Shown here in pieces: positions 51,423 through 55,286 of a DNA stretch of 64,000 nucleotides. The stretch's first letter is position 1. Every line of letters starts with the position of its first letter. Under the pieces are notes generated by a model. The model ran no database searches. It worked only from the letters and a program-made list of their open reading frames with translations, and was not told the origin of the DNA. A program made the position numbers and the translations under genes. The DNA comes from Myxococcota bacterium (lineage in GTDB: Bacteria; Myxococcota; B64-G9), in NCBI GenBank assembly GCA_022710975.1, contig JAKLGA010000002.1, forward strand, positions 372,001-436,000, given 5' to 3'.

Positions 51423-51923
51423 TCAGGGGGCGGGCGCGGTCTGGAAGGTCGCCTCGGCGCCGATGCCGGGCCGCTCGGGGATGCCCAGGTCCGCCAGGGG
51501 GCCCAGCTTCGAGCCCTTGACGGCCGTGGTCAGCGTCAGCCGGTAGCAGGTCTGGGGCAGCAGGAAGGCGTCCTGGCTGGCGGTGGCCGGGTTGATCAGC
51601 ACCAGGGCCGGGTCCATCGCGTCCACCGCGGCGCCCGAGCCGAGCTCGGTCCAGGTGACCTCCAGGCAGCCCTCCGCCCCGGGGGTGGCCGAGGCCAGCA
51701 GCACGCTCGTCTCGCTGATCGAGGCGCCGTCCACCGCACCCGAGAAGTACACCATCGGCTGCACGGCGGGATCCACGTCCACGGCCCCGTCCAGCGGCAG
51801 GTAGACCACCTCCAGGGCGTCCGGGGCCTCGACCACCGGATCCCCGCAGGCGCCGAGCAGGCCCGCCAGCGCGAGCAGGGCGAGCGAGCCGAGCAGCAGC
51901 TTCCGAGTCCTCGTGGCGCGCAT
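51423..51923 (-). CDS. Lipoprotein with Big_5-like Ig domain
   Basis: This 166-residue protein has a signal ending LLGACGDPVV, followed by one Ig-like unit of the Big_5 kind, opening VVYLPLDGAVDVDPAVQPMVYFSGAVDGASI. It closely resembles the neighbouring lipoprotein at 51945 and follows it after 21 bases, so the two are probably duplicates in one operon. GGGAGAACCTATC precedes the ATG. Confidence 0.82.
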   Translation of the reverse strand: MRATRTRKLLLGSLALLALAGLLGACGDPVVEAPDALEVVYLPLDGAVDVDPAVQPMVYFSGAVDGASISETSVLLASATPGAEGCLEVTWTELGSGAAVDAMDPALVLINPATASQDAFLLPQTCYRLTLTTAVKGSKLGPLADLGIPERPGIGAEATFQTAPAP

Positions 51924-51944
51924 GATAGGTTCTCCCGGGCCCCG

Positions 51945-52379
51945 TCAGGGGCCGACCTCGAAGCCGGAGCGGATGGTCACGCCGAGCGGATCCGTGCGGC
52001 CCCCGTCCGTCCGGCCCTGCAGGGAATCCGCGATCACCACGGTGTAGGATCCGGCCGCGAGGGGTGAGTCCGGGCTGAAGACGACCGTGGCCAGCTCCTC
52101 GTCGAGCGCGGACAGCTCGAGCGACCCGGCCACCGGCGCGCCCGCGGCGCCCTCGAGGTGGAAGGTGTCCTCGTAGAGCTCCCCCTCCCCCGTGCCGAGG
52201 ATCACCTCGGTCGAGAACACGGCCACCACCTGGGCGTCGGGCGCGACGCCGGTCTCTCCCAGCCGGGGCGAGAGATCCAGCAGGCGCAGCGGATCGGCGC
52301 CCTGGGTGTCGACCTCCACGCCCCCGCAGCCGCCCAGCAGGGCGGCCAGGATCCCAACTCCGCAGGCGATCGCGCGCAT
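51945..52379 (-). CDS. Lipoprotein with Big_5-like Ig domain
   Basis: This 144-residue protein has a signal ending LLGGCGGVEV and one Big_5-type unit with LDLSPRLGETGVAPDAQVVAVFSTEV, as in large surface-adhesin repeats. It is likely exported and lipid-anchored. It is the first gene of a two-gene unit behind the promoter at 52431. The role is unknown. Confidence 0.82.
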   Translation of the reverse strand: MRAIACGVGILAALLGGCGGVEVDTQGADPLRLLDLSPRLGETGVAPDAQVVAVFSTEVILGTGEGELYEDTFHLEGAAGAPVAGSLELSALDEELATVVFSPDSPLAAGSYTVVIADSLQGRTDGGRTDPLGVTIRSGFEVGP

Positions 52380-52430
52380 GCTCCACTCCCTGTGGTCGAA
52401 GAGCCCTCGCCAAGCCCGAGGTTCGAGAGC

Positions 52431-52460
52431 AGTCTACCACCGGCCCGGCGCCCAGCACAA
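52431..52460 (-). promoter_or_regulatory. Promoter of the Big_5 lipoprotein pair
   Basis: On the minus strand TTGTGC and TAGACT are separated by 18 bases, about 52 bases upstream of the ATG at 52379. Confidence 0.5.
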
Positions 52461-52477
52461 GTCCCGGGTCCCGGAAA

Positions 52478-53251
52478 TCACTCGCCTTTCCGCCGGCCGC
52501 GCGAGCGGAGCAGCTCGCCCAGGTGGGCCGCCTCCCAGGCCCGCACCCGGGCCTGGTGAACGAAGAGCGCCTCCCGGGCGCGGAACTCCCGCGTGTGCAC
52601 CAACCGCCGCCGGCCCGCCTGCCTGGCCCCGAGCACGTGATGCAGCAGCTCGTGGTAGACCACCGCCACGACCACGGCGGCCGGGACCCAGGCCTGATCG
52701 AGGGCGGGGTGGACGCGGATGCAGCCGTCCTCGAACGAGTAGGCGCCGAGCTGGATGAAGCGCCGCCGGCCCCGCCGGCCGGCCCGCCCCCAGGCGATGG
52801 GCACCGCCAGCGGGCCGCCGAAGTAGGCCCGGCCCAGCGCGTCGCGGATGCGCTCCAGGTGGTACACCCGGCCCCGCGGCCCGGCCCCGGCGCGCACCCC
52901 GCCTGGGCGCAGGCGGTCCCGGTGCCGGGCGATGAAGTCGTCCACCAGCCGACCCTCGGCCCGGCTGGCGCGGCCCGACAGGTAGGCGCCCAGCGCCGCG
53001 AGCACCGGCCCGTCGGCCTCGAGGAACATGTGGTGCAGCCGCACCTCCAGCCGCCCGTGCCGGCGCCGGGCCGAGAGCACGGTCGAGGTGTTGTCGGTCA
53101 GCAGCAGGCGGAAGGGCGGGCCCGGCAGGTGGGCCGCCAGCCGCGCGGCCAGCGCCTCGCGCAAGGCCGGCTGGTGCACGGGATCGCGCAGGGGGCGGCG
53201 CACGGGCCGGGGACCGCGGAAGGCGAAGCTGAGCTGCTCCACGTCCTTCAC
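52478..53251 (-). CDS. SprT-like zinc metallopeptidase-like protein
   Basis: This 257-residue cytoplasmic protein resembles the SprT-like domain: YLSGRASRAEGRLVDDFIARH leads into the fold, IQLGAYSFEDGCIRVHPALD matches the strand before the active site, and VVYHELLHHVLG (residues about 196-207) carries HExxH. A further His lies in RRLVHTREFRAREALF, where SprT proteins place the third ligand. Eukaryotic SPRTN cuts DNA-protein crosslinks; bacterial SprT roles are poorly known. The start overlaps the stop of the pseudokinase-cyclase gene (GTGA), so the two are coupled. Confidence 0.82.
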   Translation of the reverse strand: MKDVEQLSFAFRGPRPVRRPLRDPVHQPALREALAARLAAHLPGPPFRLLLTDNTSTVLSARRRHGRLEVRLHHMFLEADGPVLAALGAYLSGRASRAEGRLVDDFIARHRDRLRPGGVRAGAGPRGRVYHLERIRDALGRAYFGGPLAVPIAWGRAGRRGRRRFIQLGAYSFEDGCIRVHPALDQAWVPAAVVVAVVYHELLHHVLGARQAGRRRLVHTREFRAREALFVHQARVRAWEAAHLGELLRSRGRRKGE

Positions 53252-55047: not shown

Positions 55048-55239
55048 TCAGCTCCGATCCTGGCCGAAGCCGACGACGAAGCCCGTCAGGGCGAAGAAGG
55101 GCACCGCGACCGCGGGCCTGCAGGTGAGGGGTCAGCCCATCCCGGCGCTCTGCAGCGCCAGGCTCATCCCCAGCCCGACCAGCCCCGCCACCCCGCCCAC
55201 CAGGAGCGGCCAGCGCAATCTCTTCCACCACGCGCGCAT
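55048..55239 (-). CDS. Small two-helix membrane selenoprotein (Sec at residue 36)
   Basis: Reading on from an ATG at 55239 gives two membrane helices (residues 11-30 and about 43-59) with an in-frame TGA codon at 55132-55134 (residue 36). The frame continues as PLTCRPAVAVPFF and ends at a TGA at 55048, 63 residues in all. If the TGA is selenocysteine, the loop reads U-P-L-T-C, matching the C-P-I/L-T-x-x-P loop I recall from small two-helix membrane proteins of the DUF6132 kind. A GC-rich hairpin with a GGUC loop lies 14-32 bases after the TGA. Start support: GGAGGTGCGCG before the ATG and its own promoter. The alternative is a 35-residue protein ending at the TGA, which would leave the conserved continuation unexplained. 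Confidence 0.78.
55100..55118 (-). promoter_or_regulatory. Candidate bacterial SECIS hairpin
   Basis: In the message, bases +14 to +32 after the UGA fold into a 7-bp stem (GGC, one bulged U on the 3' side, then CCGC paired with GCGG) closed by the tetraloop GGUC at +21 to +24. Bacterial SECIS elements lie just 3' of the UGA, inside the coding region, with a G in the first two loop positions. The GGUC of the loop is the same as in the E. coli fdhF SECIS, known to bind SelB. Confidence 0.72.
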
Positions 55240-55257
55240 CGCGCACCTCCGGCGCCA

Positions 55258-55286
55258 AATCTAGGACATTTTGTGTCCGAATACAA
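55258..55286 (-). promoter_or_regulatory. Promoter of the selenoprotein gene with operator-like dyad
   Basis: On the minus strand TTGTAT and TAGATT are separated by 17 bases, 18 bases before the ATG at 55239. The spacer contains the perfect inverted repeat GGACA-N5-TGTCC (55264-55278), placed where a repressor would block polymerase. The regulator is unknown. Confidence 0.6.

Follow-up and report, generated by a model that had tools for sequence, protein, structure and literature searches.

A probable two-helix membrane selenoprotein of Myxococcota, remotely related to DUF6132, and a tiny companion selenoprotein family

The window (the whole 64,000-nucleotide stretch of Myxococcota DNA that we analyzed) carries on its minus strand, from 55239 to 55048, a gene for a 63-residue two-helix membrane protein with an in-frame TGA at codon 36 (55132..55134). 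With that codon read as selenocysteine (Sec), the translation is MRAWWKRLRWPLLVGGVAGLVGLGMSLALQSAGMG-U36-PLTCRPAVAVPFFALTGFVVGFGQDRS-stop: it begins at an ATG (55239-55237), places a cysteine at residue 40 (TGC, 55120..55122), and closes with another TGA (55050-55048), 27 codons past the Sec codon. Two further elements can be read directly on the same strand: a Shine-Dalgarno sequence, GGAGGT (55245..55250), 5 nt ahead of the ATG, and a possible promoter, TTGTAT-17 nt-TAGATT (55258..55286). The 17-nt spacer of this candidate promoter contains an operator-like palindrome, GGACA-CAAAA-TGTCC (55264-55278); no similar palindrome was noticed by eye upstream of the gene in the relatives.

The preliminary description of this locus gave no strand, and the plus-strand reading of 55048-55239, which yields a meaningless translation, was discarded. 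Its placement of the in-frame TGA between two membrane helices was borne out by the minus-strand translation, by hydropathy maxima at residues 11-29 and 42-60, and by AlphaFold2 (14 homologues, mean pLDDT 71), which put U36 and C40 in the linker between predicted helices at 2-31 and 42-62. Net charge was tallied for the eight members found in the window's taxonomic family: +2 to +5 at the N-terminus, 0 to +2 in the loop, and about 0 at the C-terminus. The product is a helical hairpin with a positively charged N-terminus; by the positive-inside rule, the short link that bears U36 and C40 is probably exposed to the periplasm. As the 3′ end of the gene varies among homologues, closing with TAA or TAG in G003, G001 and G005, the last TGA of the window gene is most likely a true stop.

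Homologues were sought with the protein as query against 58 relatives and then with an alignment as query against 195 genomes of the phylum. A TGA occupies the equivalent position in 13 of the 195 genomes, the window's included, from three taxonomic families (G000-G005, G007, G008; G021, G077, G078, G079; G131). The preliminary description had looked to homologues with TGA or Cys at this position, and to conservation beyond it, for support, and both were found. Both flanks of the TGA are conserved in all 13 genomes: it is followed by UxxxCxPAVA (C40-x-P-A-V-A) and helix 2, within which stretch C40, P42, V44, A45 and G53 are invariant. A natural Cys version occurs in one genome of the 195, G017, where locus L061 reads GSTCSFLCRPHVAG (CSFLC), with a TGT codon for Cys exactly at the Sec position; Cys40 is present in 14/14 sequences. 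Searches with the single window protein returned one relative from a collection of genome contigs and no match from plasmids. Three other candidates were set aside: G031 L065, which lacks the two helices and looks like a chance match, and G013 L019 and G056 L024, which lack the motif.

These comparisons bear on the simplest alternative, that the TGA is an ordinary stop that leaves a 35-residue one-helix peptide, with the downstream frame untranslated or a decayed remnant. TGA is indeed a normal stop codon in these genomes, and the reading frame before it can stand alone; however, the protein sequence stays conserved past the TGA in 13 genomes, no homologue has TAA or TAG at that position, G017 has Cys there, and an RNA hairpin downstream is frozen and covarying. 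All of this argues against the alternative, which we regard as very improbable.

That hairpin, a SECIS-type structure with the form GGCCCGC-GGUC-GCGG-U-GCC (55100..55118, minus strand), has 20 nt between the UGA and its apical GGUC loop (55108..55111). By the published rule, a bSECIS lies 16-37 nt after the UGA and has a G in the first loop positions (PMC13188914), and the GGUC hairpin satisfies it. A hairpin with this invariant loop lies about 20 nt past the UGA in 13/13 TGA genomes, and its stem covaries: the pair 24-33, which joins two synonymous third codon positions, is C-G in eight genomes, G-C in four and U-A in one, i.e., fully compensated. The covariation score was reached by 0/500 shuffles and was lower in slid controls, although the shuffle counts overstate independence, the sequences being related. 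Within the window's taxonomic family (eight genomes), the codons CCC GCG GTC GCG GTG stay identical while most others vary. These five frozen codons run against local usage: in G004 and G005, whose GC content is moderate, only 9-11% of the Ala codons in nearby genes are GCG. The frozen codons are absent from the Cys homologue in G017. Taken singly, the window hairpin shows no excess stability over its shuffled versions (z -0.31), and it is comparison that carries the case. The Rfam model SECIS_1 (RF00031) matched nowhere, controls included, and so tells nothing either way; an Rfam scan of the region gave nothing convincing.

The preliminary description had also proposed looking for the Sec machinery in this genome, counting its absence as a refutation; all of it is present: tRNA-Sec (76.8 bits), selA (513 bits), selB (291 bits) and selD (380 bits). 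Ribosomes would thus decode UGA-36 as Sec with the help of the GGUC-loop hairpin about 20 nt downstream and the products of selA, selB and selD together with tRNA-Sec. Because the homologues, the natural Cys version, the RNA hairpin and the Sec machinery all agree, we are highly confident, on sequence grounds, that the 63-residue protein is a genuine small membrane selenoprotein with UGA-36 read as Sec. It resembles catalogued bacterial selenoproteins in its UGA with a downstream bSECIS, in its redox-type U...C pair, and in belonging to a genome whose selD encodes a selenoprotein. The SelD in question (L075:1531) has its in-frame TGA in QCASAAG-U-AAK. Among the other genomes with the TGA form, in G001 (70% complete), G077 (92%) and G079 (80%) the only tRNA-Sec matches, 84-86 nt long, scored 48-50 bits and may be tRNA-Ser instead.

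The suggestion that the protein is DUF6132-like proved right, but the relationship is remote. Against Pfam, the window protein did not reach the gathering score for DUF6132 (PF19628), and one of nine family members matches that domain, at E=0.0016. Profile comparison was clearer: hhalign against 15 DUF6132 sequences gave 96.9% (E 1.5e-10, 55 columns) and aligned U36 on the Cys of CPIT/CPLT, and the family profile also retrieved true DUF6132 proteins in G133 and G069. Both are small two-helix membrane proteins with a glycine-rich helix 1, and the C-P-I/L-T-S-N loop that precedes helix 2 in DUF6132 aligns with U-P-L-T-C-R-P here. They differ in that DUF6132 has Cys instead of Sec and carries its second Cys upstream (GCRTGTC, CxTGxC), whereas in the window family this upstream Cys is missing, no GCxTGxC pair occurs, and Cys40, four residues after the Sec (UxxxC), takes its place and is likely the resolving partner of U36. 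Judged by these profiles, the family is a remote, Sec-containing relative of DUF6132 rather than a member by the Pfam criterion. The Sec family (14 genomes) and DUF6132 (17 genomes) never co-occur among the 195, a pattern that is not statistically significant alone; in one taxonomic family, f13, the Sec form is found in four genomes and DUF6132 in thirteen. Because its relative has Sec at that position, there is now a strong hint that the CPIT/CPLT cysteine of DUF6132 is redox-active. A Pfam match to EccD (E 0.0017) was dismissed: it falls short of that model's threshold and seems to reflect the composition of a membrane-spanning segment.

No meaningful match was found in NCBIfam 20.0 for the nine members of the Sec family. 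The 2026 catalogue of prokaryotic selenoproteins lists 119 families and subfamilies (PMC13188914, Table 1), none with this domain, UxxxC loop or two-helix form, and our searches of the literature on DUF6132 and on selenoproteins of Myxococcota found nothing relevant. Closest in kind are the selenoproteins of the YeeE/YedE thiosulfate-transporter (PF04143) and mercuric-transport (PF02411) families, which are likewise Sec-bearing membrane proteins; they belong to other Pfam families, with Sec motifs GUxSG and C/SxxU, and the window family matches neither. With it, the known selenoproteins gain a family that neither the current catalogue nor NCBI's annotation models cover. A selenoprotein with a bSECIS is of a known kind; the Sec-containing relative of DUF6132, and the pairing of small membrane selenoproteins described below, appear to be new.

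A second tiny gene, with a TGA of its own, directly precedes the Sec family gene in G001-G005 and G008 and the gene of the Cys homologue in G017; its product follows the pattern M(D)xxWLLxxLAxWILLQAVILPRLGVxT-U-MSxACxPG... (for example L045:8928-9080 on the plus strand, and likewise in L046, L044, L043, L042, L041 and L083). In the window's own genome, the companion profile matches at G000:C4:99697-99834 (L094). Across the phylum, the profile found companions in 38/195 genomes, nearly all with exactly one TGA, and in 30/30 sequences examined the TGA follows the ...GVxT-type motif. Hairpins past the TGA covary in two groups of companions, each taken separately. The companion has no meaningful match in Pfam or NCBIfam, and it is not listed in the selenoprotein catalogue either. 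On this comparative evidence, it is a second, previously unrecognized family of predicted tiny membrane selenoproteins, and the more widespread of the two. Genes of both families are so small and so broken up by TGA that standard gene callers would not pick them up, a hint that tiny membrane selenoproteins go systematically unnoticed.

The partner of the companion's Sec is likely the internal Cys of MSxAC in the window's taxonomic family and, in many other members, a Cys at or next to the C-terminus. Companions L097, L100, L102, L104, L108, L109 and L112-L116, all from outside the window's family, lack the MSxAC Cys and carry this C-terminal one, as though the partner had shifted position. Two companion-bearing genomes stand out for their tRNA-Sec, with a doubtful 48.9-bit match in G066 and none in G037; this may reflect assembly gaps or a real exception. 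Like the Sec family, DUF6132 is found beside the LPRLGVxTU selenoprotein, adjoining it in G070 and G071. Companion genomes show a strong enrichment for one or other of the two, present in 23/31 (Fisher p 1e-13, uncorrected for relatedness).

The neighborhoods of the companion and of DUF6132 in relatives offer the best clues to function. In G070, a thioredoxin, a thioredoxin reductase and a sulfide:quinone-reductase-like (SQR-like) FAD enzyme are encoded near the companion; the FAD gene, named by likeness only since it falls below the NCBIfam cut-offs, stops 12 nt short of the region that the companion profile matched. A DUF302 gene adjoins the companion in G092, G183 and G088 (L149, L150, L156), typed as such in the first and assigned by likeness in the other two, and a thioredoxin gene lies beside it in G024. 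Near DUF6132 we found a CoA-disulfide reductase with a rhodanese in G051, and an ArsR-type regulator plus a PhsA-like molybdoenzyme in G084, with a protein similar to the regulator in G085.

It is because of these neighbors that we infer a redox role at the membrane involving thiols or sulfane sulfur. That U36 and C40 carry out thiol redox chemistry of some kind seems to us likely; they would probably cycle between selenol/thiol and selenenylsulfide forms. Our more specific proposal, which we offer tentatively, is that the substrate may be sulfane sulfur, a persulfide or polysulfide, or the thiol pool that serves it, handled together with the companion and thioredoxin-type reductants. A real selenoprotein could instead serve general defense of membrane thiols or against peroxides, its periplasmic selenol reducing disulfides or lipid peroxides with no link to sulfur compounds: the redox-type UxxxC motif would suit this role, as would the thioredoxin and TrxB genes near the companion in G070 and the thioredoxin beside it in G024, but the recurrence of SQR-like, DUF302, rhodanese/CoA-disulfide-reductase and PhsA-like neighbors of the companion or DUF6132 points to sulfur compounds, and we hold this alternative to be possible rather than probable. 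Still more speculative, and in our view unlikely, is an extension of the sulfur proposal in which the two tiny selenoproteins work as a pair, forming a transmembrane selenol relay for reducing power or sulfane sulfur with the thioredoxin system and the SQR-like flavoenzyme; the companion's Sec would then probably lie at the cytoplasmic face and that of the window protein probably at the periplasmic face.

The ArsR-type regulator that G084 encodes close to DUF6132, and the similar protein in G085, might suggest a different use of the Sec/Cys pair, namely the binding of a metal or of mercury or arsenic species by a small helper in transport or detoxification, in the manner of MerT-type selenoproteins. 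A small two-helix protein with a pair of soft ligands would fit such a task, but neither mer nor ars resistance genes were seen adjoining, MerT (PF02411) was not matched, and we consider this quite improbable.

In the window, the genes around the selenoprotein gene (kinase/cyclase genes and a putative peptidase) give no hint of sulfur. With a kinase/cyclase as the next gene downstream, the selenoprotein might act as a sensor subunit that relays its redox state to a membrane-bound signaling partner encoded alongside. Similar arrangements recur: the neighbors of the Sec gene in f13 are sensor kinases, among them a downstream membrane PAS-HisKA-REC hybrid kinase (typed in G078, with homologous genes in G077 and G079), and kinase and cyclase genes also neighbor the Cys homologue in G017. 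Against this, G002, G004 and G005 have no kinase/cyclase at that place, and these genomes seem so rich in such genes that the proximity may be due to chance; we hold a sensor role to be doubtful, and a role in thiol or sulfane-sulfur redox chemistry at the membrane remains our preferred reading.

Beyond the downstream kinase/cyclase, the window encodes a HELLHH-motif protein, which has no match in Pfam, and then two short lipoproteins; the same set lies directly downstream of the Sec gene in G002 and G005. The conserved block spans 51423-53251 (minus strand) in the window, L045:9288-11080 and L044:5433-7318, and includes Big_5 domains in G002.
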